Shown here piece by piece: positions 2,589 through 61,366 of a stretch of 64,000 nucleotides of DNA. The stretch is from Proteiniphilum sp. X52. GTDB lineage: Bacteria; Bacteroidota; Bacteroidia; Bacteroidales; Dysgonomonadaceae. A program made the position numbers and the translations under genes. Each line of letters starts with the position of its first letter. Positions within the stretch are counted from its first letter, which is position 1. The DNA is taken from positions 124,001-188,000 of the forward strand of contig NZ_RDSD01000006.1 in NCBI RefSeq assembly GCF_003712195.1. The letters run 5' to 3'. The notes beneath the pieces were generated by a model. It saw only the letters and a program-made list of their open reading frames with translations. It made no database searches and was not told the DNA's origin.

Positions 2589-4520
2589 TCAATATCCGGG
2601 ATTTTGGTAAGCCTTCTTTTCCTCCTGGCTCATTGTCATACCATCTATTTGTCCTTGAGGTATCGGGCGCAAATAGTGAAAAGGCTCAATCTTACGGGTA
2701 AAAGTTTCGGGGGTATGATCTCCTTTCGAAGAACCACAAATGGTGTAGGTGGCCGCCACTTCCGCCCATTTCTGCGTACGAACCAAATCGTGCCAGCGAT
2801 ACCCTTCTCCAAAATATTCCCGGCTACGTTCTTCCAGAATATAGTCCACATCAATCACATCGGGAGTTGCCGCAACCATTTGGAGACTCTTATCTTCAAT
2901 TTTTTGGTAATTGCCATTATTCTTCCAGCGCCATTTTCCGGCACGTTCACGAAGCACATTCACCAAATCCCGGGCACTGACAGAACCGGTCGCTCCTTTA
3001 ACAGATGCTTCAGCAGCAATCAGGTAAAACTCGGAGAATTTCGCAATATTCCATGGACGGGTAATAGCCCCGTTGGGCTGTCCAAGTCCCTCCCCGTTAT
3101 CAGTCCGATAAGTTCCCAGTTTCCATAGACCGGGATAAACAATACGGCTTATCCCGCTCGGGGCAATCACCCAGTCGGCTCTGCCAGGCAAAGTTCCGGC
3201 GCCTATGTTACTTGCTCCGGCACCTGTAGGATAGCTTACAGGATTTTCAGGTTCTTCATCCAGAAACGTGAGTAAAGGGTCTCCATTGTTTACGGGAAGA
3301 CCGTTTGCATTGTATAGGGTTTCATCAGCGACTCCACCTTTTTTCCAGTTTCCATAATACACTGTGGCAAAGGTGCCATCGAAGCGGCTGTCATTCTCCT
3401 TATCGCTAAAAGTATGGGTATAGGCTTCAATGGTTGGCGCCATACGGGTCCAAGGTCGGCCTCCCCACTGCACAGCTTCGCGTTGGACAGAAGAAATATT
3501 ATAATCGGTGCCGTTTGCCGAACTTTTAATATCTGTATAGTTACAGGTAACAAACCAAACCGCGAAGTTTTCCGGTGCTCCACCTCCGGAATAAGAGAGA
3601 CTGGCCTGATTATAATACTCGTCTTGAATGTGATCGGAATAAAGAACGATTTCCTTGTTTCGATCGTTGCTACCCAGATTGACATCATAATAATAGTCCA
3701 ATAACCCAAATGGCCCGGGGTTTTCAATGCCCTGCAAGGCTACGTCATACGCCTCTTGGAAATACCATGCCGCATCATGTCCATCGGGATCAGTTCTGGG
3801 TGTTTCAGGATAAGTGGGAATATTATTGGGATTTTCGAGCCACCATGCATAGGTAAGGTATGCTTTCGAAAGAAACAAGCGGGCCGCTGTTTTTGTCACT
3901 GTACCAGTCAGTCGTCCTGTTTCGGGAAGATGTTCAACCGCTGCCTTCAAATCGGGGAAAATAGCCTTTGTATATACCTCGGGAACGGTATTCCTGACGG
4001 AAACACGCGTAGGCGTTATATTATATTTTAGCTCACCGCTTCCTAAGTCAAGAGGAACACCACCAAAGGTCTGTACAAGCAAAAAATAGTCATATGCCCG
4101 CCAAAAGCGCGCCTCGGAGATCATCGCTTCCGAAAACCCCACCAGACTTGCCTCTTCGATGATACCACTGGCAGTATTGATATTTGAATAAACCGCCCCC
4201 CAAAGGGCATCAGACCGGCTGGTTTGGGGAGTTAACGAACCCACTCCCGACATATCGGCATCCTTGAAATTTCCGTCCGCGCTTTGGGCCCAGGTATATT
4301 CATCGGTGCCGCTTTGCGTGGCAGCATAATAATACTGCCCCAGAAAATAACGTGTATGTGCGTACAATGACGTTAGCCCCATCCGCAAACCTTGTTCGGT
4401 TTTGAAGAATCCCGGCTCATAGATGGAACGGGGATTTTCATCCAGAATATCGTTGGAACAACCCCCAGACAATAATACCGCTGTGATTATTCCTACTATT
4501 GCATAAATTATTTTTTTCAT
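2589..4520 (-). CDS. SusD/RagB-family glycan-binding lipoprotein
   Basis: A 643-residue protein with a lipoprotein signal (LLSGGC, lipidated Cys21), a SusD-type N-terminus (NDILDENPRSIYEP) and the typical C-terminal SusD ending with FGEGYRWHDLVR and a final NPGY. SusD proteins sit on the outer membrane, cap their SusC partner and deliver oligosaccharides to it. The gene follows its SusC partner after a 142-bp gap that holds one copy of the conserved leader hairpin (4540-4626), whose edge is 20 nt before this ATG. It precedes the GH3 gene. Together the three look like a small xylo-oligosaccharide uptake module next to the main xylan locus; the ligand is an inference. Confidence 0.95.
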   Translation of the reverse strand: MKKIIYAIVGIITAVLLSGGCSNDILDENPRSIYEPGFFKTEQGLRMGLTSLYAHTRYFLGQYYYAATQSGTDEYTWAQSADGNFKDADMSGVGSLTPQTSRSDALWGAVYSNINTASGIIEEASLVGFSEAMISEARFWRAYDYFLLVQTFGGVPLDLGSGELKYNITPTRVSVRNTVPEVYTKAIFPDLKAAVEHLPETGRLTGTVTKTAARLFLSKAYLTYAWWLENPNNIPTYPETPRTDPDGHDAAWYFQEAYDVALQGIENPGPFGLLDYYYDVNLGSNDRNKEIVLYSDHIQDEYYNQASLSYSGGGAPENFAVWFVTCNYTDIKSSANGTDYNISSVQREAVQWGGRPWTRMAPTIEAYTHTFSDKENDSRFDGTFATVYYGNWKKGGVADETLYNANGLPVNNGDPLLTFLDEEPENPVSYPTGAGASNIGAGTLPGRADWVIAPSGISRIVYPGLWKLGTYRTDNGEGLGQPNGAITRPWNIAKFSEFYLIAAEASVKGATGSVSARDLVNVLRERAGKWRWKNNGNYQKIEDKSLQMVAATPDVIDVDYILEERSREYFGEGYRWHDLVRTQKWAEVAATYTICGSSKGDHTPETFTRKIEPFHYLRPIPQGQIDGMTMSQEEKKAYQNPGY

Positions 4521-4539
4521 ATGATCATTTTATTGTTTT

Positions 4540-4626
4540 ATTTCGGTATATGGAACCTTCGATGTGCAAAATAATCATTTCCCTGGGGGTGTTTGATGAT
4601 TATTGTAAACAGGTCGGTTTCATATC
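4540..4626 (-). promoter_or_regulatory. Conserved leader element with hairpin, copy 1 (between susC and susD)
   Basis: About 87 bp nearly identical to the element at 16654-16740 and sharing its gene-proximal half with 9594-9640. It contains an inverted repeat, AATAATCAT (4570-4578) with ATGATTATT (4596-4604), around a C/G-rich loop. The gene-proximal edge lies exactly 20 nt before the SusD start codon, the same distance as copy 3 before its gene. Function unknown; an RNA structure controlling translation or mRNA stability of the downstream gene is plausible. Confidence 0.75.
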
Positions 4627-4662
4627 AATATTTTGTCAATGTTGGATAAAGTTTTAAAATAC

Positions 4663-7600
4663 TCAGAAGGTTAAATTTATACCTATCAAAAAGTTACGGG
4701 TCTGTGGTGTGTTGGTACCCACTGTGAGCATGGTACTTTCATTGTATGGGAGGTCACCGGTCACAGCCGCGTTCTCATCGCCATATGAATTGGTTACAGG
4801 ATCCAATCCCGTCTCAATATTGAAAGGAGAAAAGAGAACAAAAAGGTTTTGCACCGCGCAATAGATCCGTGCGCTCTCAATCCCCGTTCTTTTCATCCAG
4901 GATTGATCCGGTTGAAAGTTATAACCCATTGTAATTTGCCCCACTTTAAAATAAGATCCGTCAAAATATCCCAACGTAGATCCATATTTCGGGTTATCAC
5001 CGCTGGTAGCTCCTCCCGGTTTAGGATACTTGGCACCCCTATTTTCCGGAGTCCAGTAGTCGACTTTCACATTTCCCCGTCGTCCGGAAAGCATATTCAA
5101 ATAACCATTTGCGGCATGAAGCGAACTTACAAGGACGCCTCCATGCTGATAGGTCCCGATCAGACTCAAGTCTAAGTTTTTATAAGCCATCCGTGTATTG
5201 AATCCCCCCAACCAGTCGGGATCGGCACTGATGACCTGGCGGTCTTCTGCTCCTATCTGTCTCAGCGGGGCTCCGTTGGTATCATAACCTCCCGTATATT
5301 TGACTTTGATCATACCCGCGTTTCCACCGGGTTCCAGCAAGCTTAGATGGGGCTCTCCCTCCTGCCAGAGTCCGACACGTTCATAGTCATAGATGGAATT
5401 GATGGGGTAACCCACAAACCAGGCGTTTCCTTCGTCCCTGTCCTGGCCTGATGCCAGTTCCACGATTTTATTCTTGTTTAAGTAAAAGTTCAGGCCTGCC
5501 TCCCACGACCAACCGTTGTTATTTTCGATGATGTTCCCGCTTAATGCAAGTTCAAATCCCTTATTCCGCGACTTACCCACATTGGCCCAGTAACTTGGCA
5601 CACCGGTTGTGGAAGGAAGGTTCACCTTCATCAGCAGATCGTTGGTATTGACGATATAATAATCAGCAGAGCCTTGTAGCCGGTTATTCAGCAATGAAAA
5701 CTCCAATCCGATATTATAGGTGCTTGAAAACTCCCAACCCAACGAAGAATTCTGGACTTCCGACACGTAAGCCCCAATGGTTGTGGTGGTTCCGAAATTG
5801 TAGGGACGGACGGTGAGGCGTCCCAAGGTAGCATAAGGGGATACTGCCTGATTGGATGTTTGCCCCCAACCAAGACGGAGTTTCAGGTTGTCTATCCAGC
5901 CTATATTTCCAATAAATTCTTCTTTACCGAGGTTCCAACCTGCGGAAATGGCCGGATAAGTATGCCATTTGTAGCCGGGAGAAAGACGTGAAGAGCCGTC
6001 GGAACGTATTGCCAGGGAGAGCATGTACCGACTGTCATAATCATACATAACGCGTCCCATCCACGATTTCAGCCCCCATTCCTCATATGACTGGTCCGCG
6101 GGATCGACCGTGACATCATCTTTGGCGGCCTGCCCCAGATTCCAGTATTGGAAATGATCCGACGGGATATTCTGCGCTCTTACCAGTGAGCGATCATAAT
6201 GGGTTGCCTCTTCCGAATACAAGCCGGTAAAATTCAAATGATGCTTATCAAAGTATTTATCATAAGTTACCACATTCTCCGCCACCCACTGATAGGTGAG
6301 CGACTTCTCCAATGAGCCCGTAGACGCCGCGGTAGTAGTGGAGCTGAAAATCCCTTCTCCCTGATATTGCCCCCTGTTGACCCCCCTCAGGTTCAATCCC
6401 AGGTTGATGCGGTAACTCAATCCCTCCACACCGGGTATTTTCACCTCTCCATATAGTGAGTTATAGGATCCGTATCCTTTTTTATTATCGGCATATTTAT
6501 CTCCAAGGGCAAGCACCCTCTCGCGGGTATAAGTCCATGTGTCATCTGCCACAGAATGGATTATCGGTTTCAATGTGCCGTCAGAGTTCAGCGGATCGAT
6601 AAGAGGAGAGGTGGATAAGGTGCTGTACATCCCGAGGTTCTGACCGTTTGTCACATTATAGTTATTATTCGTTGTCAATCCGAAACGAAAATACCGACCT
6701 ACGCTTTGGTCTATGTTTGCACGAAGGTTGACACGATTATAATCCTGCCCGGGCAAAAGCGATTTATCTTCATAGTATCCTGCTCCAAAACTATAACTAC
6801 TCTTGTCTGTTCCACCCGAGATAGTCACATCATGACTCATCACCATCCCCGGCTCGAACATCAATTCCTGCCAATCGGTATTCGTCCCTTCTGTCTCATC
6901 ACTTCCCAAAGAGGGTCTGGATCCTCCGCCCTCCACATTTTCCCGGTAGACACCGGCATCATGCCGTAGTTGATAAAGCTCGTCACCCGTCATCATCGGA
7001 TAGCGGTTATAGAGTGATTTCACACCATAATAAGCATTATAGCTTACCCTTGCCTTTTGTCCGGACACACCTTTAAATGTGGTGATCATTATCACGCCGT
7101 TAGCCCCCCTTGATCCATAGATTGCCGTGGAAGAGGCATCTTTGAGGATATCGATACTCTTAATGTCATTTGGATTAATATCCGAAAGGGTCCCGGCAAA
7201 AGGTATTCCATCAAGCACGATAAGCGGGTCATTGTCGGCATTCAGGGAACGGGTGCCCCGTATACGGATTTGCATATCAGCCCCGGGCTTGGAACTGCTT
7301 TGTTGCATTTGTACCCCGGGAAGGCGCCCCTGTAAGGCAGTCGTCAAATTCCCTGTGGGTATGTTCCTTAGCACATCACCCTGCATTGAAGAAACCGATC
7401 CCGTAACCGCTTCTCTTCTCATCGTTCCGTAACCGACCACCACCACTTCTTCCAACAATGCCATATCCTCTTCCATGATAATACGCAGGGAGGTCCTTCC
7501 GTCCAACGCTATGGTTTGGGGGGCCATCCCGACGTAAGACACCTCCAAAGTGGCATTGGAGGGCACATTAGTCAACATGAAACTGCCATCGGCATCAGTA

Positions 7601-7785
7601 ACCGTGCCAATAGAGGTGCCGTGTACCTGCACAGTCACGCCGATAAGCAATTCTCCTTTCACATCAGTAACCGTTCCCCTCACGGTAATGTTCTGGGCAA
7701 ACGCGTGTTGGGAAAATGCCCATACCCATAGCAGCAAAATCCCTCTAGATAGATTTAAAATTTGCTTTTTCATCTCATTTTTCAT
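4663..7785 (-). CDS. SusC/RagA-family TonB-dependent outer-membrane transporter
   Basis: A 1040-residue SusC-type protein: signal peptide ending near HAFAQ, an N-terminal carboxypeptidase-regulatory-like beta-sandwich (about 32-110, VRGTVTDVKGELLIGVTV), the TonB-box region EEVVVVGYG, a plug with PLIVLDGIPF, then the long beta-barrel ending in a terminal Phe (INLTF). It imports oligosaccharides across the outer membrane together with the SusD encoded next. Two ATGs are possible, at 7785 and 7773. It is divergent from the Nudix-type regulator at 8225, with a 439-bp AT-rich region between, so that regulator is the likeliest controller. Substrate class (xylo- or arabinoxylo-oligosaccharide) is inferred from the neighbours. 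Confidence 0.95.
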   Translation of the reverse strand: MKNEMKKQILNLSRGILLLWVWAFSQHAFAQNITVRGTVTDVKGELLIGVTVQVHGTSIGTVTDADGSFMLTNVPSNATLEVSYVGMAPQTIALDGRTSLRIIMEEDMALLEEVVVVGYGTMRREAVTGSVSSMQGDVLRNIPTGNLTTALQGRLPGVQMQQSSSKPGADMQIRIRGTRSLNADNDPLIVLDGIPFAGTLSDINPNDIKSIDILKDASSTAIYGSRGANGVIMITTFKGVSGQKARVSYNAYYGVKSLYNRYPMMTGDELYQLRHDAGVYRENVEGGGSRPSLGSDETEGTNTDWQELMFEPGMVMSHDVTISGGTDKSSYSFGAGYYEDKSLLPGQDYNRVNLRANIDQSVGRYFRFGLTTNNNYNVTNGQNLGMYSTLSTSPLIDPLNSDGTLKPIIHSVADDTWTYTRERVLALGDKYADNKKGYGSYNSLYGEVKIPGVEGLSYRINLGLNLRGVNRGQYQGEGIFSSTTTAASTGSLEKSLTYQWVAENVVTYDKYFDKHHLNFTGLYSEEATHYDRSLVRAQNIPSDHFQYWNLGQAAKDDVTVDPADQSYEEWGLKSWMGRVMYDYDSRYMLSLAIRSDGSSRLSPGYKWHTYPAISAGWNLGKEEFIGNIGWIDNLKLRLGWGQTSNQAVSPYATLGRLTVRPYNFGTTTTIGAYVSEVQNSSLGWEFSSTYNIGLEFSLLNNRLQGSADYYIVNTNDLLMKVNLPSTTGVPSYWANVGKSRNKGFELALSGNIIENNNGWSWEAGLNFYLNKNKIVELASGQDRDEGNAWFVGYPINSIYDYERVGLWQEGEPHLSLLEPGGNAGMIKVKYTGGYDTNGAPLRQIGAEDRQVISADPDWLGGFNTRMAYKNLDLSLIGTYQHGGVLVSSLHAANGYLNMLSGRRGNVKVDYWTPENRGAKYPKPGGATSGDNPKYGSTLGYFDGSYFKVGQITMGYNFQPDQSWMKRTGIESARIYCAVQNLFVLFSPFNIETGLDPVTNSYGDENAAVTGDLPYNESTMLTVGTNTPQTRNFLIGINLTF

Positions 7786-8224
7786 TTGTTTAAATTAATC
7801 ATTTCAAACAGGATAACTCTCGATCGGTACAGATTAATCCCCCTTTTTAGCCTATCACCGCTCCCTTCTTCCCTACTCCCCTATCATCGCAAAACGTGCA
7901 AGAATATGCCGGATCAATTCTTTTACATTTACCATTAACTTGTCAATACAACGTATTTACTTCATGTATTTATCACAATAACATCTTGTAGTATCGATTA
8001 ATTATGAGCCTATTAAATTCAATAATAGAATAAAAAAAATCAAAACTTATTGTACTTTATACATATATACAAGATATTATATTTTGCAAATATATGAATA
8101 TATTTCTATTTCAAAAGAATAAAATAACAAAAAAAACATAAATAATAAAATAAGAGGATTCTTCTTTATATTTCTTGTACAAGTAAAATTAATAGAATAA
8201 TTTTGTACTGAAAAAGAGAATCTT
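7786..8224. other. Divergent intergenic control region
   Basis: This 439-bp AT-rich stretch separates the SusC gene (minus) from the Nudix-type regulator (plus). No gene is visible. It contains three CTTGTA-type half sites (7985-7990, 8068-8073 on the other strand, and the palindrome at 8174-8183), a good promoter for the regulator, and a weaker minus-strand promoter candidate: TTTTG at 8116-8112, 17 nt, then TATATTTG at 8094-8087. Confidence 0.55.
8174..8205 (+). promoter_or_regulatory. Promoter of the Nudix-type regulator with overlapping palindromic operator candidate
   Basis: A -7 box TAATTTTG (8198-8205) matches the Bacteroidetes consensus TAnnTTTG. CTTG at 8174-8177 lies 20 nt upstream as the -33 box. 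The -33 box is embedded in a perfect 10-bp palindrome, CTTGTACAAG (8174-8183), so a repressor bound there would block the promoter. Autoregulation is an inference. Confidence 0.6.
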
Positions 8225-8989
8225 ATGACAAACATTCATATGTCCCCTCCCCCATCGGCGCCGCTCCCTTATAATCCTCATGTCTCTGTCGACTGTGTTG
8301 TTTTCGGTTTTGACGGGGAGAGGCTGAAAATCCTTTTGATCGAACGCACAATCAGTGAGGTAAATGGTAATTACAGCGATAAGAAACTGCCCGGCAGCAT
8401 TATTTATCAGGATGAAGATCTTGACACGGCCGCGACACGGGTCCTCAATGAACTTACCGGACTGAAAAACATTTTCCTGCATCAGTTCCATAGTTTTGGT
8501 GATCCCCAGAGGACTGGCAACCCCAGAGACAGGAACTGGCTTGAGAAAACAACTAAAATGAAAATTGGACGTATTGTGACCGTAGGGTATCTGGCCTTGA
8601 TCAAGATAAGCCGGAAAATCATCTTTGAATCGGAGAATACCACGGCCAGATGGTATGACATCGAATCGCTGGGCACCATGAAACTGGCCTTCGACCACAA
8701 TTCGATCGCGGAAGAAGCCCTAAGGTACATACGCCATCAGGTAATGCTCCAGCCTTACATGTTATTCGAACTATTACCCCGCAAATTCACTATGACACAG
8801 CTTCGTAATTTATACGACCTGATACTCGAGACAAAGTCGGATGTACGCAATTTTCAGAAAAAGGTACTGCTTATCGAGGGACTGGAACAACTCGATGAGG
8901 TACAGAAAAATGTCCCTTACCGGGCTCCCAGGCTGTACCGGTTTAACAAGAAAAAAGCAACAAAAGAAAGAAACAAGCACGGGTTCTGA
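8225..8989 (+). CDS. Nudix-domain transcriptional regulator (NrtR/AraR-like)
   Basis: A 254-residue protein with a Nudix-fold ligand domain (about 20-165: VDCVVFGFDGERLKILLIER, then KLPGSII) and a C-terminal winged-helix region (about 170-240). The Nudix box is degenerate: where hydrolases have REUXEEXGU, this protein has RVLNELTGL, so it is expected to sense rather than hydrolyse. Bacteroides thetaiotaomicron AraR, which controls arabinose use, is a Nudix-derived regulator of this design. Placed beside SusC/D, GH43 and GH3 genes, this protein probably responds to arabinose, xylose or a derivative. A second in-frame ATG lies at codon 6. Family assignment is firm; the ligand is an inference. 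Confidence 0.85.
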   Translation: MTNIHMSPPPSAPLPYNPHVSVDCVVFGFDGERLKILLIERTISEVNGNYSDKKLPGSIIYQDEDLDTAATRVLNELTGLKNIFLHQFHSFGDPQRTGNPRDRNWLEKTTKMKIGRIVTVGYLALIKISRKIIFESENTTARWYDIESLGTMKLAFDHNSIAEEALRYIRHQVMLQPYMLFELLPRKFTMTQLRNLYDLILETKSDVRNFQKKVLLIEGLEQLDEVQKNVPYRAPRLYRFNKKKATKERNKHGF

Positions 8990-9073
8990 GAGAATCAGGC
9001 TTTTCGGCTCGCGCGCGGGGAAACGATTACCGTGTAAAAAGAACGCCGGCAGGTAAGCCACCCGTGTGAAGTG

Positions 9074-9665
<592 letters not shown>

Positions 9666-9682
9666 TCATCCTCGGACATTTA

Positions 9683-11764
9683 TCATTCAAAGGCTATATG
9701 GTAAGTTTTCACCAATCCCTTATAATCGAAATTCACCATGGCTTTCCCGTTTCTTGAGGAAGCCTGGGTGACATCCACTTTTACGGCAGGATTATCGGAC
9801 GAGGCCGTCACCACCGGGATTGCGTCGGATCCCGAAGGGCGCGGGCAGGAGACCTCATAAAGGTCATAGCCGACGATTCCGTTGGTTTCGGTAGATCTCA
9901 CCGGCATTTCCGGCAGCGGCACCCCTTCTCCGTTCACCTGTATCCGCACAGAGGGAGGTACGGGACGAGTGATTTCTTTTTCCCCGGCACTGAATCCAAG
10001 CCCGATCAAATCGAAAAGCGGTTCCTCGGGTTTACCCTCTGCCACCAGATAGATAGCATGTTTACCCTCCAGGTGATCGACGAATGTAGACACGTCGACC
10101 TTCCATTTCGCAACCTCTTGTGTCATATTGGCCGGCACATTGATTTCCCCTATTTTTGTCCCTTTCCAAATGGCATTATCCCAAGGTCCATCCAGCCATA
10201 TATGTACCTTAAATGCGTCAGGGGTTTTCGCGGTAAGGAAAAGGTTAAATGCCGTTTTATTCCCTTTTTTCGTACCCTCGAAAGCTTTCAACCCGCTTTT
10301 ATCTTCTTGAAGGCCTCCGAACCCAAAATACTTATACCCGACAATGTGCCCGTTTCCCACATCACTGACAGGCATATGGTTATCCCATATATCCCATGAA
10401 TCCTGTTGGAGATTGATATCGGACAAATAACAGGCATAGCCCGCTGAATAATATTGGTAGGGATCGAGCCCGTAGATGTGAAACCCTTCCGAAGTGACTT
10501 CGGCTCCGGTATATTCGTTCCCTTTGCCGTCCCTGACTGTGCGTATATGATCTTTGGCATACGGATCGTACGCCCTGATGGTGACCGTTCCGCCTTCCGA
10601 CACCAGTTTCTCGTCCCAGGTAACCGAGATGGGGGCGACCATTGCCTGTCGGGCAAATCCAAATCCTCTCGGTGGCCTGTGATAGAACACATACCATTGA
10701 CCGTTTATCTCCTCTATGCTGCCGTGGGTATTGTGTCCCGCGTTGGATGTCACGATGGCGGTACCATCCCGGTTGAGAACCGGGGCACGGGAGTCTACCA
10801 ACACGCCGCCAATCCTCCATGGGCCCAAAGGTGAATCCCCGACGGCGTAGCGCAAGGTGGAATTTGAACTGGCAATACCATAATCCGGACCTGAATATCC
10901 GCTGTAAATAGTAACATACTTATTTCCCACCTTGCGGATGGAGGATGCTTCAAAAAAATTGAACTTACCCATGTCCTCACCCGGATAAACCCGCGGGAAA
11001 TCAGTCCCTTCCGGATCCCGTATTTCCCCGTATTTTTTACCCGCAGGCAAAAAACGTTCAATGATTTGGGTTCCCGGCCTCACCGAATACATGGTATTTT
11101 GGTCCAGTTCAGTCGCGGAAGATTTTTGGAATCCCCAGTATCCGTAGGCCCTGAAACCAACCTCATAATCGGGATCATTGGGGTCGGTAACATATTCGAC
11201 ATGGACGGCAGGGTCGAAACCGAGGACGCTTCCCGGGACGGTACGCTGACCGTCGGCTGTCAGGTTGACGGGCGTGAACGGTCCATCCGGCCGGCTACCC
11301 TTAGCCACCATGGCCTCCCTATGCGGCCCCCTGCTGTGAGGGTAAAGATAATATTCCTTGGTCCCGTCTTTGCGTTTCACCTCCACAAGGTCCGGGGCGT
11401 ACATCACATCCCATCTTCCATCCACCTCATAGGTAAACACCGGACCTTCATCCCTCCAACTGGCAAGGTCTTCCACGGGTGCCGACCATATCCGGATATC
11501 GGGTCCGCAATAGCTTGAATAACGCACATCGTGAGAACCGATGATATAAGCCCGGTATTTACCTGGCGTATCGGGATCTTCAAAGACCCGCGGTTCGCCG
11601 TCCGGCAAATGCTCCCAGAGGGGAAGGTACGGATTTCCCAGGGAGCGGTGGACAAACTTCTCACTTATCTTCTTATCGGGCGCCGGACTATCTTCCCCTC
11701 CGGCCACGGTGGAAACACATGGTAAGGCCATTAAACCCAATAATACCAGGATCTTTTTTGTCAT
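9683..11764 (-). CDS. GH43-family glycoside hydrolase with C-terminal carbohydrate-binding-like domain
   Basis: The start chosen is ATG 11764 (MTKKILVLLGLMALP), which gives a good signal peptide; an upstream ATG at 11779 only adds five residues. About 693 residues. The five-bladed propeller of GH43 is recognisable: PRVFEDPDTPGKYRAY, DVMYAPDLVEV (pKa-modulating Asp), and FFEASSIRKVG with the likely acid Glu at about residue 272, followed by AGHNTHGSIEE and WYVFYHR. The C-terminal part (about 540-615, HIWLDGPWDNAIWKG) resembles a CBM6-type sandwich. GH43 enzymes are mostly arabinofuranosidases or xylosidases; removal of side chains from arabinoxylan fits the locus. Subfamily and exact activity cannot be fixed from sequence alone. 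Confidence 0.88.
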   Translation of the reverse strand: MTKKILVLLGLMALPCVSTVAGGEDSPAPDKKISEKFVHRSLGNPYLPLWEHLPDGEPRVFEDPDTPGKYRAYIIGSHDVRYSSYCGPDIRIWSAPVEDLASWRDEGPVFTYEVDGRWDVMYAPDLVEVKRKDGTKEYYLYPHSRGPHREAMVAKGSRPDGPFTPVNLTADGQRTVPGSVLGFDPAVHVEYVTDPNDPDYEVGFRAYGYWGFQKSSATELDQNTMYSVRPGTQIIERFLPAGKKYGEIRDPEGTDFPRVYPGEDMGKFNFFEASSIRKVGNKYVTIYSGYSGPDYGIASSNSTLRYAVGDSPLGPWRIGGVLVDSRAPVLNRDGTAIVTSNAGHNTHGSIEEINGQWYVFYHRPPRGFGFARQAMVAPISVTWDEKLVSEGGTVTIRAYDPYAKDHIRTVRDGKGNEYTGAEVTSEGFHIYGLDPYQYYSAGYACYLSDINLQQDSWDIWDNHMPVSDVGNGHIVGYKYFGFGGLQEDKSGLKAFEGTKKGNKTAFNLFLTAKTPDAFKVHIWLDGPWDNAIWKGTKIGEINVPANMTQEVAKWKVDVSTFVDHLEGKHAIYLVAEGKPEEPLFDLIGLGFSAGEKEITRPVPPSVRIQVNGEGVPLPEMPVRSTETNGIVGYDLYEVSCPRPSGSDAIPVVTASSDNPAVKVDVTQASSRNGKAMVNFDYKGLVKTYHIAFE

Positions 11765-11920
11765 GTTACATTGAATCATCTTTATCGTATTTGAAATGAA
11801 ATATCTACCAGTTTAATTTTTAGAGAATGGAGGGATACTCATGTATTGGCACAAACATCCTATGATCATGCGCATTCTCAAAATTATTTTCTCCACATTA
11901 TAATACTTCCGCATGGGGAT

Positions 11921-13168
11921 CTATTTGAACAAATTCAGGTCAATATATTCACCCATTTTACGATACCCCGCTTCGTTAGGATGAAGAAAATCATTGTCAT
12001 GCATATCGGGCAGGATGGCGGCCGGGTCAGTCGGGTTGCGCATGATTTCGTCAAAATCGATCACAGCATCGAACCGTCCGCTTCGTCGTATCCACTCATT
12101 TACCGTATCCCTCGCCTGCCTGCGAAAGTCAGTATCATAAAACGATCCTCCAAAAGGGAGAATGGTTGCGCCGTATACTTTCATACCTTTCGCTTTCGCC
12201 TTGTCGATCATCAATGAATAAGCTTCGATAAGTGTTTGCGCCATCTTCGGTGCTTCTTCAGCAGAAGAAATGCCTCCAATGTCATTGATCCCCTCGAGGA
12301 TGATCAGCCAGCGCACGTTGCTTTGCGAGAGGATATCCCGGTCAAACCGATCCAGGGCAGTGGGGCCCAATCCTCCTCGCACCACACAATTACCGCCTAT
12401 TCCCTGGTTGAGTACGCCGATACGGCTTGTTTGGGGATCTTTCAACAACCTTTCCGAAAGGATGTCAGTCCACCTATTCTGTTTATTTGTTCCGGATCCG
12501 CGCCCGTCGGTGATGGAATTGCCCAACACAGCAACGGCACCAGCCGCGGGTGAGGCAAGCACCTCTAAACCACTGATAACATACCAATGGTCTGTAAGTA
12601 CGGCTCCCGTGAGCTCATCTGACGCGCACTGATTTCCCTCGACCAGAAAAGAGGTAGTTCGTGATCCGGGATGACCGGTTATCTCCTCCGGTGTTTCGCC
12701 AAAGGCGATAGTGATGGCAAGCCTTGATCCCGGCGCCAAATGAAAAGCCAGCGGGTCTGAAACAACAACCGATTCCGGCATAATGACCACCTGTCCATTC
12801 CCTTCAAAGCGTAATGCCTTCTGCGTGGCCGCGTCAACGGAACCGTCTTCCCTTGCAGGGGCAATTACGACGGATTGTATTGTGACAGGCGCATTGCCGA
12901 ATGCATTGGAAAATTGTAACCGGACCCTATCACCGCCGAGGGAAACCCTTATAACCTGGCGCAAAGTATTATTTGCCAACCCCGGGAAAGGAGGCATATT
13001 CCCCGGTTCCACCAACTGAGGGGCGGCAGTCCAGCTTCCCGTCCAGAGGTGCGGGTTCCCGTCCTTTGGCATTTCCGTCCTGAGTATTGCACAGGCGGAT
13101 AAAACGAACAGCAAGAAAAAGCTGCCTACTATGATGGGAATGGGGTTTTCATTTTTGAATATGTCCAT
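11921..13168 (-). CDS. SGNH/GDSL-family esterase lipoprotein
   Basis: A 415-residue lipoprotein (LFVLSAC, Cys27). An N-terminal beta-rich part (about 40-200, LRQVIRVSLGGDRVRLQFSN) precedes an SGNH hydrolase domain with block I GNSITDG (nucleophile Ser), block II GIGGN, block III GIND and block V DFLHPNEAG (catalytic Asp and His). Enzymes of this build deacetylate polysaccharides or act on other esters. Beside GH10 and GH43 genes, acetyl-xylan deacetylation is the natural reading. It sits 25 bp downstream of a GH10 gene in the same direction, so it is probably co-transcribed. Confidence 0.88.
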   Translation of the reverse strand: MDIFKNENPIPIIVGSFFLLFVLSACAILRTEMPKDGNPHLWTGSWTAAPQLVEPGNMPPFPGLANNTLRQVIRVSLGGDRVRLQFSNAFGNAPVTIQSVVIAPAREDGSVDAATQKALRFEGNGQVVIMPESVVVSDPLAFHLAPGSRLAITIAFGETPEEITGHPGSRTTSFLVEGNQCASDELTGAVLTDHWYVISGLEVLASPAAGAVAVLGNSITDGRGSGTNKQNRWTDILSERLLKDPQTSRIGVLNQGIGGNCVVRGGLGPTALDRFDRDILSQSNVRWLIILEGINDIGGISSAEEAPKMAQTLIEAYSLMIDKAKAKGMKVYGATILPFGGSFYDTDFRRQARDTVNEWIRRSGRFDAVIDFDEIMRNPTDPAAILPDMHDNDFLHPNEAGYRKMGEYIDLNLFK

Positions 13169-13193
13169 AACCGTAAGAAATGCATGTTATAAT

Positions 13194-14348
13194 CTATTTT
13201 CCGGGAGTACTTTCTCTTGTGGCTGCCGCGTCCATGATGTCGCGGACAATCGGTTTGGGTTGGTATTTCCGGTCAAAAAGCAATGGATAATCGGTGCGTC
13301 CTCTCATGGGGAAGTCGTTTTTCCACGAATCCCTGTCTGTTACCCCCCACATCGTTACCCGTGAAATTTTATCGCTCTGATCCAAAAATAAGGTAAAATA
13401 GGCAACCATCTTTTCATGCCATCGCATAGCCACGGAGTCAGGCAAAACATCCGGATAGGGATTCATTTCGGCCCTGAATTGCTCGGTATCAGCAATATTG
13501 GCCCCAAAGTCGCGACGCGGGGAAGGCAATACGCTCATATCGAATTCCGTGATCATCACTTTTACTCCGGCCGCGGCATAAGCATCTATTGCCGACCTGT
13601 ATTCATCGGTGGAGGGGTTGTTCACTCCGATATGCCCCTGCATTCCGACACCATCGACACGGAGGCCTTTTTCCTTTAACGTTTTTACCAAATCCACGAT
13701 AGCATCCCTCTTTTCCCCTATCCATTCGTTGTAATCGTTGTAATATAACTCGGCATCGGGATCTGCCTCATGCGCATATTGAAATGCCAACGGAATGAAT
13801 TCTTCACCCAATATTTCATAGAACTTGCTTTTCCTCCACTCACCATTGTCCAGGATCGCTTCATTCACCACATCCCAGCCGTGTATTCTTCCCTTGTAAC
13901 GTCCGACCACCGTATAAATATGATTTTTCATACGCTCTTTCAGAATTTCGGGAGATATATCATTTCCCCGGTCGTCCGTGAAAAACCATGACGGTGCCTG
14001 GGAATGCCAGATTAAGGTATGTCCTATTATAAGCATGTCATTTTGCTCCCCGAAGGCAACGAACTTATCCGCATCGTCAAAGAAAAACCGGCCTTCCTCC
14101 GGCTGCAGATACATGCTCTTCATACAATTTTCCGCCACGATGGAAGAGAATTGGTCTTGTACTATTTTCAGGGAGGCTGTATCATAGCCTCGTATCTGAT
14201 TTATATTCAGAGCGGCTCCAATATGGAACCTGTCGCCTAACGCCTCCTTGAGCGAACAAGAGGCTTCTTTATCACTTGCTTTCGGGTTGCCACAGCAAGC
14301 CAATGACAATATCAGATGGAAACAAAAAATGGTTGTTAAAATTTTCAT
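13194..14348 (-). CDS. GH10 endo-1,4-beta-xylanase, single domain, lipoprotein
   Basis: A 384-residue lipoprotein (signal ending LSLACCG). The whole length is a GH10 barrel: HTLIWHSQAPSW, HGWDVVNEAI with acid/base Glu at about residue 163, DAELYYNDYN, and MITEFDMSV with nucleophile Glu at about residue 268, ending with the VTMWGVTD and PLLFDRKYQPKP motifs. It hydrolyses internal xylan linkages with retention. Unlike the upstream GH10 (14421-16634) it has no inserted binding modules, so it is likely to trim imported oligosaccharides, either from the periplasmic face or at the surface. Confidence 0.95.
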   Translation of the reverse strand: MKILTTIFCFHLILSLACCGNPKASDKEASCSLKEALGDRFHIGAALNINQIRGYDTASLKIVQDQFSSIVAENCMKSMYLQPEEGRFFFDDADKFVAFGEQNDMLIIGHTLIWHSQAPSWFFTDDRGNDISPEILKERMKNHIYTVVGRYKGRIHGWDVVNEAILDNGEWRKSKFYEILGEEFIPLAFQYAHEADPDAELYYNDYNEWIGEKRDAIVDLVKTLKEKGLRVDGVGMQGHIGVNNPSTDEYRSAIDAYAAAGVKVMITEFDMSVLPSPRRDFGANIADTEQFRAEMNPYPDVLPDSVAMRWHEKMVAYFTLFLDQSDKISRVTMWGVTDRDSWKNDFPMRGRTDYPLLFDRKYQPKPIVRDIMDAAATRESTPGK

Positions 14349-14420
14349 GATCGTATCTGTCTTTTAGAATCTAATAGATGTATTGTTCGATTTGACAAAA
14401 CATGTTATCAAGAGGAAAAG

Positions 14421-16634
14421 CTATTTTCCGCTTAAACCGTCGGCATATCCGGCATAGGTGTGTTTACGGCTGTATTTCTCCGTCCACAATCCTACAGGTT
14501 GTCCCGCTCTCCATGCGGAGTCTTTAGGACTGTCCGTGGGACACCAGTGTGTGATGCCAAACTGTTGGGCAGCGGGAATGATCTCAAAGTACTTCTGAAT
14601 GATGAATTTGTAATACGAGGACATTGCCTTGTGCTGTTCCTCGGTCACCATCTCGGTTGGTATCGAGTGACCCTCTTCGTTGACAAGCCCCATGTCCAGT
14701 TCCGTGATTTTGATCAATTTTCCGGTTTCGGCCAATAACTGAAACATTTTCACTATATGCTCTTCCTTGCTGGCTTGCATCGCGGGATTCTCGTAATAGG
14801 AGATATGCATTTGCGTTCCGATACCGTCGATGACGGTAGTAGCGTCCGACTCCCACTTTTCAATCCATTTGATCAGGCTTTTCAATTTCTGGTTATCATC
14901 CCAGTCAGACTCCAAATTATAGTCATTCACGAAAAGTTTCATCTCCGGGGGGCCATGTCTACGTGCCAGCTCCACGGCGACGCGCACGTAGTTGTCGCCC
15001 AGGTAGTCCTGCCAGTAGAAATTATTCTGAGCGTCAGACTCCGAAACATTTTTCACCGATTGAAGATCGTAGAGGCCATCACCGTCCAAATCACTACCTG
15101 AGAGAGGTTCATTTACCACATCCCATGCTGTGACATAACCGTCGCATGCTTCCATCATACCGGCAATCCAGTTTTCCATCGCCCGGGTGAGCGTATCTGC
15201 CTTTTCCTCCGGGGTAAGGGGTATCTTGTTTCCTGACTCTTCAATTTCAAAACATATGTCATCAAAATAGTAAGTATTGGCCTCTTTAAATACGGCAAGG
15301 TTGAAAGCGATCGTGCTCATTCCGTTTTGATCAGCCGATATAACGCCGGAGTTGGAGTATTCCTGCCATTGGGTAGTGAAATTGGGGCTTCCCACCATCG
15401 ACCAGTGCAGGTATTCACCCGGATTTTTATGCGCCTGAGACTCAGATGGAGCCGGTTTATCAGCCTTGATCTTCATACTGAAGCGGTAACTATCGCCGGT
15501 CTCGAATACATGGGGCACTTTGACGAAAAACTGGGTATCCCAATTGTTGACAGGATTGTCTCCAGCCTGGACAACAATCGACCGGCCGATACCACCGGCA
15601 CCGGTCCCTGTGGCTCCAAAAGTGGCGGCTTTTGGTCCATCTCTACTCTCCGTAGCGAAAAAACTGGAGAGATCATTATCTTCACAATCGCTGTTGCTCA
15701 CCAGATTGGTCCACCATGTTGTCGGAGCAGCCGCCAAGGGTACTATCGAATATGAATAACCATGCCATCCCGGTTTTCCCCAACCCGTCAGGTCATCTTC
15801 ATCGAAAGAGCCGTTGGGGATAAGGTTTTCTTCCGAGCCGGATGCAGTGAAAGAGATATCATCGAAATAGAGATCGCCGCCAAACTTACCAAAACAGAAC
15901 TGCAACCGGTTGGCGGCGAACTCCGCGGTCCAGTTGATGATGACTTCGGCCCATTTGTCGCTTACCGGGATGGCCAACCCGTACTTCACATTTGATCCGT
16001 CGGTAGGCCAGAAGTCCATGGTAAAGGCTTCCGAGGCAAACACCCGCATTTTGAGGGTGTATGCCACCCCCGTCGTCAACGGTTCCGCCAAGTCATAATA
16101 AATCTGCCAGTCCCATGTATTTGCCTTTGGCTCCGGTGTTTTCATGTGAAGAGCGTTGTTCGCGTCACTCGGATCGATTTCAATCTCCCTGTCGGCAAGA
16201 ATGCTGTTCAGGTATTTGTTATTCTGCTGGGCATGCCAGAGCAACGTATGTCCGTAAATGGAGATGCCGGCGGCTTTCGCAGCTTCGACAAATTGCACTA
16301 CCTGTGAAAAGTTCATAGAACCGTCGTCACTTACCGACGAACTGTACTTCATGAGATTTCCCGCCGTCACATCATCAAAATTGGCATTGATGAAACGGTA
16401 CACTAAACCCTGCTTGATATAATCTGTAGCGACTACGCCGGCACCCAGCTTGAAGCCGGGATGGGCACTTCTGTCGACATGGCTTTTCAGCGCGCCGTAA
16501 CCATTGAGGTATTCCATCGCTTCAATAGAAGCCGGTTTATCTACCTGAAACAATAGTTCCGCATCATCCACACAGGAAATGAACAAAACCAATAGCAAGA
16601 TAAAAGCTCCTTGAAAAATATTCTTATGTTTCAT
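14421..16634 (-). CDS. xyn10A: GH10 xylanase with two CBM4/22-like modules inserted in the catalytic domain (Xyn10A type)
   Basis: A 737-residue lipoprotein (signal ending LLVLFISC). The GH10 barrel starts at about 45 (GFKLGAGVV, then GHTLLWHAQQNN). It is interrupted from about 150 to 470 by two beta-sandwich modules, each beginning with an N-G-S/S-D-type start and ending in YFDDI. It resumes at LTPEEKADTLTRAMENWI with TAWDVVNEP (acid/base Glu about 509) and IKITELDMG (nucleophile Glu about 645). This architecture is that of the surface xylanase Xyn10A of Bacteroides intestinalis and Prevotella bryantii, which binds and cuts long xylan chains outside the cell. It follows the xusE-like gene, the same order as in those loci, with leader element copy 3 in the gap. 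Confidence 0.92.
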   Translation of the reverse strand: MKHKNIFQGAFILLLVLFISCVDDAELLFQVDKPASIEAMEYLNGYGALKSHVDRSAHPGFKLGAGVVATDYIKQGLVYRFINANFDDVTAGNLMKYSSSVSDDGSMNFSQVVQFVEAAKAAGISIYGHTLLWHAQQNNKYLNSILADREIEIDPSDANNALHMKTPEPKANTWDWQIYYDLAEPLTTGVAYTLKMRVFASEAFTMDFWPTDGSNVKYGLAIPVSDKWAEVIINWTAEFAANRLQFCFGKFGGDLYFDDISFTASGSEENLIPNGSFDEDDLTGWGKPGWHGYSYSIVPLAAAPTTWWTNLVSNSDCEDNDLSSFFATESRDGPKAATFGATGTGAGGIGRSIVVQAGDNPVNNWDTQFFVKVPHVFETGDSYRFSMKIKADKPAPSESQAHKNPGEYLHWSMVGSPNFTTQWQEYSNSGVISADQNGMSTIAFNLAVFKEANTYYFDDICFEIEESGNKIPLTPEEKADTLTRAMENWIAGMMEACDGYVTAWDVVNEPLSGSDLDGDGLYDLQSVKNVSESDAQNNFYWQDYLGDNYVRVAVELARRHGPPEMKLFVNDYNLESDWDDNQKLKSLIKWIEKWESDATTVIDGIGTQMHISYYENPAMQASKEEHIVKMFQLLAETGKLIKITELDMGLVNEEGHSIPTEMVTEEQHKAMSSYYKFIIQKYFEIIPAAQQFGITHWCPTDSPKDSAWRAGQPVGLWTEKYSRKHTYAGYADGLSGK

Positions 16635-16653
16635 ACGATTAGTTTATTTTTTT

Positions 16654-16740
16654 ATTTCGGCACATGGAACCTTTGATGTGCAAAATAATCATTCCCTTGG
16701 GGTGTGTAATGATTATTGCAAACATGTCGGTTTCATATTC
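16654..16740 (-). promoter_or_regulatory. Conserved leader element with hairpin, copy 3 (before xyn10A)
   Basis: About 87 bp matching copy 1. Inverted repeat AATAATCATT (16684-16693) pairs perfectly with AATGATTATT (16708-16717). The edge nearest the gene is 20 nt before the xyn10A start codon. The loop differs from copy 1 while the paired arms are kept, which suggests selection on the structure. Confidence 0.75.
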
Positions 16741-40631: not shown

Positions 40632-40824
40632 AGAATCTGTTTTGAATTTTTTCATCCATTGTTTTTTAGCCATTTTTTGATGGATTTGGATTTTCATTGA
40701 TTGAAATGTGGCGGGTCACTTAAAAGAAATGAAAGTTCAAAGGCGCGAAAAAGGGCAAAAAACAATATGAAAGAGTGGAAAAACAAGCGTGAAAGAATTA
40801 CTCGTAAAATTCAAAACAGTTTCT
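40632..40824 (+). repeat. MITE-like element, copy A
   Basis: 193 bp with terminal inverted repeats ending in CTGTTTTGAATTTT and AAAATTCAAAACAG. Internally CATTGTTTTTTAGCC and GGGCAAAAAACAAT are also nearly complementary, so the element can fold into a long hairpin. It codes for nothing. It ends 35 bp before the first Gfo/Idh gene. Four relatives occur in the window. Confidence 0.85.
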
Positions 40825-42273: not shown

Positions 42274-42418
42274 AAAACTGTTTTCATTTTTTTCATCCAT
42301 TGTTTTTTGGCCATTTTTCGATGGATTTGGATTTTCATTGATTGAAATGTGGCGGGCTACTGGAAACAAATGAAAATGGGAAAGGACGGAAAAGGGCAAA
42401 AAACAAGATGAAAGATTG
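42274..42418 (+). repeat. MITE-like element, copy B (degenerate, right end lost)
   Basis: Matches copies A and C from the left end through CATCCATTGTTTTTT, TGGATTTTCATTGATTGAAA and GGGCAAAAAACAA, then diverges; the right terminal repeat is not present. A -7-like TAATTTTG (42450-42457) lies between it and the next gene. Confidence 0.7.
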
Positions 42419-43831: not shown

Positions 43832-44023
43832 AGAAGCTGTTTTGAATTTTTTCATCCATTGTTTTTTAGCCATTTTTTGATGGATTTGGATTTTCATTGA
43901 TTGAAATTGGCGGGCCACTTAAAAGAAATGAAAGTTCAAAGGCGCGAAAAAGGGCAAAAAACAATAGGAAAGAGTGGAAAAACAAGCGTGAAATAATTAC
44001 TCGTAAAATTCAAAACAGTTTCT
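43832..44023 (+). repeat. MITE-like element, copy C
   Basis: 192 bp, about 97 percent like copy A by eye. Left end AGAAGCTGTTTTGAATTTT, right end AAAATTCAAAACAGTTTCT. It ends only 19 bp before the ATG of the HEAT/DUF1080 gene, so its right end forms most of that gene's immediate leader or promoter. Confidence 0.88.
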
Positions 44024-60488: not shown

Positions 60489-60676
60489 TTATCTGTCTGT
60501 TTTGAACGTTTTTGTTAAGTGAAAGAGGTATAGTGGAAACTTGTCCGGACTATACCATTGCGAGAATTATTTCGATAAGCGAACAGAGAGTCAAAAAACA
60601 AGTTTTGCCTCTGTTGAGCTCAGAAATAGTGCTATTTAAATAAAATTGAAAACGACCGATGAAATCGAACATATTT

Positions 60677-60881
60677 AGAAACTGTTTTGAATTTTACGAG
60701 TAATTATTTCACGCTTATTTCACGCTTATTTTCCACTCTTTCCTATTGTTTTTCGCCCTTTTTCGCGCCTTTGAACTTTCATTTCGTTTAAGTGGCCCGC
60801 CACATTTCAATCGATGAAAATCCAAATCCATCAAAAAAAATGGCTAAAAAACAATGGATGAAAAAATTCAAAACAGCTTCT
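60677..60881 (-). repeat. MITE-like element, copy D
   Basis: 205 bp, inverted relative to copies A-C. Ends AGAAACTGTTTTGAATTTT and AAATTCAAAACAGCTTCT. It is longer than its relatives because an internal 11-bp piece (TTTCACGCTTA) is duplicated. Confidence 0.85.
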
Positions 60882-61173: not shown

Positions 61174-61366
61174 AGAAACTGTTTTGAATTTTACGAGTAT
61201 TTATTTTACGCTTATTTTTCCACTCTTTCCTATTGTTTTTTGCCCTTTTTCGCACCTTTGAACTTTCATTTCTTTTAAGTAGCCCCACACATTTCAATCA
61301 ATGAAAATCCAAATCCATCAAAAAATGGCTAAAAAACAATGGATGAAAAAACTCAAAACAGTTTCT
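61174..61366 (-). repeat. MITE-like element, copy E
   Basis: 193 bp, same orientation as copy D. Terminal inverted repeats AGAAACTGTTTTGA and TCAAAACAGTTTCT are perfect at the outer ends. Confidence 0.88.

Follow-up and report, generated by a model that had tools for sequence, protein, structure and literature searches.

Comparison of orthologous loci indicates that a short element has been inserted repeatedly, and exactly, before start codons, with most of the orthologous genes read lacking it at the same codon. The sequences described here lie in a 64,000-nucleotide stretch of the genome of Proteiniphilum sp. X52 (the window). We interpret them as copies of a short non-coding palindromic element, mobile or formerly mobile, that inserts directly 5' of an ATG, mostly in the context ATGAAA, and we give this reading a probability of about 0.7. 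Mobile elements usually avoid genes or break them. Here the element takes the exact place before a start codon again and again, and the start is left intact. If the movement is real, it provides a natural route for replacing the 5' leaders of many genes, offers a system for studying how base pairing selects a target, and cautions that “conserved leaders” of Bacteroidota can be inserted sequences.

Two full copies and a half copy are present in the window, all on the minus strand; BLAST and reading of the sequence confirm the places given for them in a sequence-only reading of the same DNA. The first full copy occupies the gap between susC and susD (4521..4623, 103 nt), running from the decoy ATGAAAC at 4623 to the end of the tail before the start codon of the SusD-family gene (4518..4520; ORF 2589-4520). 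The second (16635..16736, 102 nt, decoy ATGAAAC at 16736) precedes the start codon of a GH10 gene (16632..16634; ORF 14421-16634), so that the two stand before minus-strand ATG codons at 4520 and 16634. The 3' foot of the hairpin, which is the proposed guide or anti-start, reads GTTCCATAT in the susD copy (4548..4556, minus strand) and GTTCCATGT in the GH10 copy (16662..16670, minus strand), the latter with one change from GTTCCATAY. With 4540-4645 as query (about 326 kb searched), BLAST matched 16654-16738 (89.5% over 86 columns, E 9e-27) and 9594-9640 (89.4% over 47), and the query has no further match in the window. At 60537-60568 there is a 32-bp match, but to an insert that occurs in longer copies. 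The conserved block had been thought to end 20 nt before the ATG; the spacing is indeed fixed, with 19 bases between, but the block itself extends up to the ATG, and the element bounds were set accordingly. That no copies occur elsewhere is true only within the window: the genome holds 48 matching pieces, grouped into 39 places.

The third copy is a truncated type A element (9560..9640, minus strand), in which the 3' half and the tail are broken up by a (TATTG)n run. The 3' part (9594-9640) is followed by this run and then by a shortened element of a second type, type B (ATGAGACGAGCATGATAAT...AAATAATTTTAG..., 9525..9559, minus strand; compared by eye with type B tails), which is stacked before the ATG at 9524. 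The esterase ORF that begins there (PF00756, 9096-9524) stops at 143 aa and looks truncated, since no frame in the next 1 kb visibly continues it.

When copies are aligned in gene sense, the order of parts is a decoy ATGAAAC, a variable interior or hairpin, the closing GTTCCATAY, an A-rich tail, RT, and the ATG of the host gene. The tail ends mostly in AATCRT and abuts the ATG. Thus, the distance to the ATG is fixed because the spacer belongs to the element, and a constant spacing that follows from the element's own tail is no evidence of regulation. In the window's genome the hairpin of long copies is enlarged by 82-169 bp, in steps of 29 bp; in five of them (L022, L023, L024, L028 and L032) the extra piece contains 0-3 tandem units of 29 bp similar to TTGAGTCGCCTTCGCTCCTCGATTTTCAA. 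A coding function of the hairpin is improbable, as the reading frame is shifted by these steps and by 1-nt indels. At the other extreme, two minimal elements of about 25-33 nt in one genome (L186 and L180, both G014) consist of little beyond the foot, ATGAAAC...GTTCCAT, plus the tail. A known structured RNA family was discarded as an explanation, since Rfam had no match at gathering score anywhere in the window, and none for 4440-4720 even at E 1. Promoters of Bacteroidota have -33 and -7 elements; none was found in the 65 copies with both ends assigned, apart from one lone -7-like match on the other strand.

Right ends were searched for with the pattern GTTCCATAYN{8,38}TCRTATGA, the reversed pattern serving as control. 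There were 47, 44 and 34 matches in G000, G014 and G021, with 0 for the control in each, and the search uncovered type B (interior GAGCATGATAATCATT...GCGAG), the second main type, along with smaller types. In a wider set the pattern occurred in 31/37 Proteiniphilum genomes and 1/24 other genomes of the order (control 0/61), where 8 of the 31 genus carriers have a single match that may be chance and a few of the listed matches resemble coding sequence. A survey of 198 genomes of the order gave matches in 12, including that of the window; single matches prove nothing alone, because the reversed control gave 7 matches in 6 of these genomes, and G111, G120, G122 and G160 were set aside as chance on their sequence. 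Tails and left ends of the element type are found in G094 (25 copies), G065 (4), G212 and G030 (2 each), and G118, G222 and G180 (1 each). Judged by these ends, related elements are spread across the genus and are also present in other families of the Bacteroidales. The exact type A and B patterns had no match on viral contigs, and the exact type A pattern none on plasmids.

In the closed genome G014 all 44 right ends matching the pattern were read, and in 30 of them the adjoining ATG is itself the start of an ORF of 80 codons or more. Another 8 run straight into the left end of a further element, 7 of these reaching an ORF further on, and 6 neither open an ORF nor stack. The distant carrier G094 shows a low share, with only 4 of the 19 right ends read (of 25) opening an ORF of at least 80 aa and 4 stacking; position at a start codon is thus no requirement of the element. 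In the other six carriers outside the genus, such an ORF starts at 9/11 right ends; of the two left over, one is cut by a contig end. At one locus of G094 (L230) an ATGAAA close to the 3' end of a reading frame seems to hold an element that supplies the frame's last codons and stop (MKRA*). Overall, the search of the genome and its relatives upheld the fixed register before start codons, and showed the copies to be confined neither to xylan genes nor to start codons.

By Pfam, 14 of the 20 downstream proteins scanned (of 29 listed ORFs) in the window's genome are of polysaccharide-use types, a raw share taken without a genome background: five TonB-plug (SusC-like) proteins, three SusD-like proteins and six glycoside hydrolases or rhamnosidase. 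The other scanned proteins include a SucC-type CoA ligase, DsbD, phosphoglycerate mutase and YjeF, and the element also precedes genes whose protein starts resemble, presumably, MurG and MiaB. A link to xylan is not borne out by these genes or by the genome-wide spread of copies. Control specific to xylan genes was rejected on the same grounds, with copies at about 39 places, though polysaccharide-use genes form a share of those hit.

If the element were an inherited leader, it should be conserved with its gene across species; at most orthologous loci read it is not. A susC relative was found at 19 loci, 16 of which cover the gap to susD, and in 14/16 of these junctions the gap is short and has no element (L053 equals L057 in sequence, and several junctions are from distant genera). 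The other two carry a type B-like element at the susD codon (L052) and another insertion (L063). For seven further genes, 40 regions were fetched of 87 matches. No element foot is present at the codon of dapF (7/7), ackA (9/9), kduI (4/4) or an nnrE-like gene (4/4), these and other names outside Pfam being our assignments from the protein starts; the filled copies of ackA and the nnrE-like gene are part-elements only. A response regulator gene is empty at 4/5 loci, one paralogue seeming to carry an element, and sucC is empty at 5/9, while 2 loci (L130 and L137) carry another type and the remaining 2 are unclear. One of two orthologues of the GH10 gene (L149) is empty with the same flank (tgaatATGAAAC); the second is not alignable at the start. 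Two element types thus occur at the same codon in different species, both in susD (L052) and in sucC (L137 and L130). Since orthologues are mostly empty at the same codon, we conclude that the element was inserted rather than inherited as a leader. What appears to be one and the same gene (start MN-S-IRKKLA-IYSYIE) has a type B left end both in L206 (G000) and in L192 (G014), possibly a shared older insertion.

The target can be seen in a place that is not a gene. A second dispersed repeat of roughly 190-200 bp (family C), with ends like AGAAACTGTTTTGAATTTT, is itself a target of the element at other places in the genome. Its copies in the window are at 40739-40824, 43938-44023, 60677-60772 and 61174-61259, with a partial one at 42387-42418. 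The ATGAAA of this repeat opens a frame of only 19 codons. It is unoccupied in the window copy at 40739, in L025 and in the variants L023 and L028 of the same genome, and it holds an element exactly at the ATGAAA in L010, L011 and L021, where both sides are seen; in L021 the insertion is a type A remnant plus a type B element. Three more filled copies (L013, L031 and L037) are seen from the left side only. An element nested at an ATGAAA outside a gene indicates that the target is a sequence. Beyond left ends of kinds other than main type A, the next ORF of 80 codons starts with ATGAAA in 20/40 cases and ATGAAT in 5/40, some of the remaining first-ORF starts among these 40 being chance inner ATGs; the background for AAA as second codon is 90/309 ORFs.

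The unit folds as one imperfect hairpin with the foot RTATG-A-AAC / GTT-C-CATAY. The A.C mismatch in the foot is kept in 36 of 37 aligned type A copies, and a fold at the foot is common to the other types, where it hardly beats shuffles. Over 37 distinct copies, 93.4% of cells pair, vs 93.0% in shuffles. Seven of 28 stem pairs have changed on both sides, vs 2.2 in shuffles, and none of 500 shuffles reaches 7; sliding the structure by 1-3 columns yields 2-5 double-changed pairs. A hairpin at a fixed distance from the start codon, as first described from the window, is a feature of the copies genome-wide. The inverted-repeat arms were also as described, but the first window copy folds no better than shuffles as single-stranded DNA (z -0.63) and the second only moderately so (-1.96), vs -5.27 for the commonest form of the family. 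Type B (-0.25), the G094 type (-0.49) and the G065 type (-1.50) fold little better than shuffles. Exceptions to pairing are G-T at 16 pairs (51 cells), A-C at 7 (20 cells) and other mismatches at 16 (48 cells); the excess of G-T over A-C at most hints at maintenance at the level of the sense strand.

The last base of GTTCCATAY appears to be linked to the host start. In 125 right ends from three genomes, the Y pairs with the R two before the ATG in 109 (Fisher 5e-18, with kinship ignored; T-A 57, C-G 52, T-G 8, C-A 8). The association holds over 87 distinct strings (2e-10) and within type B-like (2e-6) and type A-like (1e-4) ends. In type A copies with both ends, the base at the right pairs in 48/50 and that at the left in 33/48 (p 0.01), 2 and 4 of 52 copies being excluded for a base that is neither A nor G. 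Among 29 distinct tails picked by hand, three pairs of tails differ by both bases only and one by a single change. All 22 distinct tails from six other genera obey the pairing, the four chance-like genomes being left out. As a test of guide pairing, this is one covarying pair, the other guide bases being invariant or fixed by the search pattern, and the link could in part be subfamily history. It supports pairing of the 3' foot with the start region, in single-stranded DNA or RNA alike, and fits either guide-target pairing of the IS200/IS605 type or anti-start pairing in RNA.

Pairing in RNA is the basis of a different explanation, in which the element is first of all a translational leader: the gene would be on when GGUUCCAUAY pairs with the decoy RUAUGAAACC and off when it pairs with RUAUGAAA at the real start, and ribosomes loading on the decoy would tip the balance. 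The three segments are complementary as this model requires, and the Y-R covariation with the real start, the double changes in the stem, the surplus of G-T exceptions on the sense strand and the many polysaccharide-use genes downstream are consistent with it. The start region is also predicted to be slightly more open in folded leaders (38 copies of 95-112 nt) than with shuffled heads, the mean unpaired fraction being 0.73 vs 0.67. However, other downstream genes belong to central metabolism, most orthologues read manage without the element, few right ends in G094 open a gene, the element also lies within family C, and no Rfam family matches. We therefore consider a dedicated leader RNA improbable. 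Control of the ratios of operon genes, the function first suggested for the window copies, is not supported, given the empty orthologues and the copies in a repeat that is not a gene. Regulation as a side effect of insertion is possible.

Inverted ends and small size raise the question of a classical MITE moved by a DDE transposase, with RTATGAAAC/GTTCCATAY as terminal inverted repeats and a target duplication. The element is small, non-coding and multi-copy, and one copy (L029) has AGGAAA on both sides. However, the conserved tail of about 25-33 nt extends beyond the right inverted repeat, there is no consistent duplication, and the target preference is stricter than DDE enzymes usually show. 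In particular, the left ATGAAAC is unchanged when the host start is ATGCAA or ATGGAA (L173 and L174) or ATGAAT, so that a 6-bp ATGAAA target duplication was rejected; the independence of the left end from the host codon indicates that the insertion lies immediately before the ATG, any duplication being limited to a few bases. Over 61 pairs, left and right ends track each other weakly (z 2.8 at -2, confounded by genome, and 3.2 at -1), and the z of 7.5 at the second base of the ATG comes from one copy. No pair of ends 0.5-5 kb apart was found by eye in G000, G014 and G021, and none at the lone ends read, so that a long autonomous element with the same ends was not seen in this material either. 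Movement by a DDE enzyme is thus quite unlikely.

Candidates for a mobilising enzyme were sought in the carriers, and no gene that would move the element was found. A Y1 transposase (PF01797) is found in only 4/31 genus carriers (G006; G011; G000, as a fragment; and G017, as a broken copy) and not in G007, G014, G019, G021 or G046. All 7 carriers from other genera have one, but so do 13/16 other genomes of the order, and no element lies beside the 15 Y1 loci read of 25 matches in the other-genus carriers. The match in G000 (L213, C14 near 587800) is a short fragment with a 71-aa frame resembling an IS200-type transposase. On these counts a Y1 transposase is not supported as resident partner. 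An integron integrase (TIGR02249) is likewise not supported as the mover, as none scored above cut-off in the 25 genus genomes searched (of 37), and weaker, Xer-like matches occur in 40/41 genomes. Arrays of attC-like sites, which a tyrosine recombinase would join so that cassettes pile up on an attachment core located at the start codon, are a most improbable account, since a two-part stem with an internal loop and conserved mismatch, and stacking at one core, are outweighed by the want of such an integrase, by a foot that does not fit the attC consensus GTTRRRY, and by sites that are scattered rather than in one array.

Returning to the mobile palindromic element, we suggest that it would move as a folded single strand, in which GTTCCATAY would pair with the right end and with the target RTATGAAA, choosing the site as the guides of IS200/IS605 elements do. 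In Proteiniphilum, its bias towards start codons would follow from how often genes begin with ATGAAA and from the loss of insertions within genes, and a gene that was hit would still be translated because the A-rich tail would supply a new leader of the Bacteroidota type. Taken to its full extent, the proposal is of widespread, undescribed elements of the Bacteroidales that home to start codons by means of a built-in anti-start guide (GTTCCATAY) acting on RTATGAAA, rebuild the start from their own tail, stack repeatedly, and leave an RNA with decoy start, anti-start and real start that might act as a translational switch; this whole is tentative, and we hold it at clearly less than even odds. 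No start-codon-targeted repeat of this kind was found in the literature searched by titles and the beginnings of abstracts, most subscription papers lying outside its coverage, and “start codon” is absent from the main text of a MITE review (PMC10969869).

Among known systems, some likeness is seen to stem loops and MITEs of other bacteria. According to the available sections on the IS605 stem loops of Borrelia, these are free-standing, adjoin lipoprotein genes and have G-U pairs suggesting upkeep at the RNA level (PMC2775950); the present element shares the free-standing stem loops beside genes and the G-U-type exceptions, whereas in Borrelia the stem loops lie at gene 3' ends and their parent element is known. 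The BrickBuilt MITE of Porphyromonas gingivalis, as far as described in the sections available (PMC4596501), has 19 copies in one strain and internal tandem repeats. It is also from the Bacteroidales and comparable in its internal repeat (here of 29 bp, in long copies), but identity was rejected, because the ends of BrickBuilt are of IS5 type and its copies are 49-591 nt away from genes, whereas the present element ends at the start codon.

Parallels are also offered by REP sequences with TnpA-REP (RAYT) and by the IS200/IS605 family. REPs are, in the sections available (PMC8266576, PMC6006769, PMC3733652), likewise short interspersed palindromes in many copies and clusters, and some of them need a mismatch in the palindrome; “start codon” is absent from the main text of PMC3733652. 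In contrast to REPs, there is no constant GT[AG]G tag 5' of the hairpin (left ends compared by eye), and Y1/RAYT matches are limited to the four genus carriers above. IS200/IS605 elements such as IS608 and ISDra2 have, in the available parts of PMC5934647 and PMC8266576, an imperfect hairpin with an unpaired base and a strict short target, inserting just 3' of the retained target, which is read through base pairing with a guide in the element. The imperfect hairpin with a conserved mismatch, the strict short target and the proposed guide resemble this family and its hairpin-only derivatives. Differences are that no Y1 transposase lies beside any copy of the element read, that the target is a start-codon-like sequence, and that the 3' strand of the hairpin foot would serve as guide, whereas theirs is a tetranucleotide 5' of the hairpin. 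With no claim to membership in either group, the best reading would be a REP/MITE-like element with the logic of IS200/IS605, in which a folded strand carries a guide that reads the target and inserts next to a short constant sequence.
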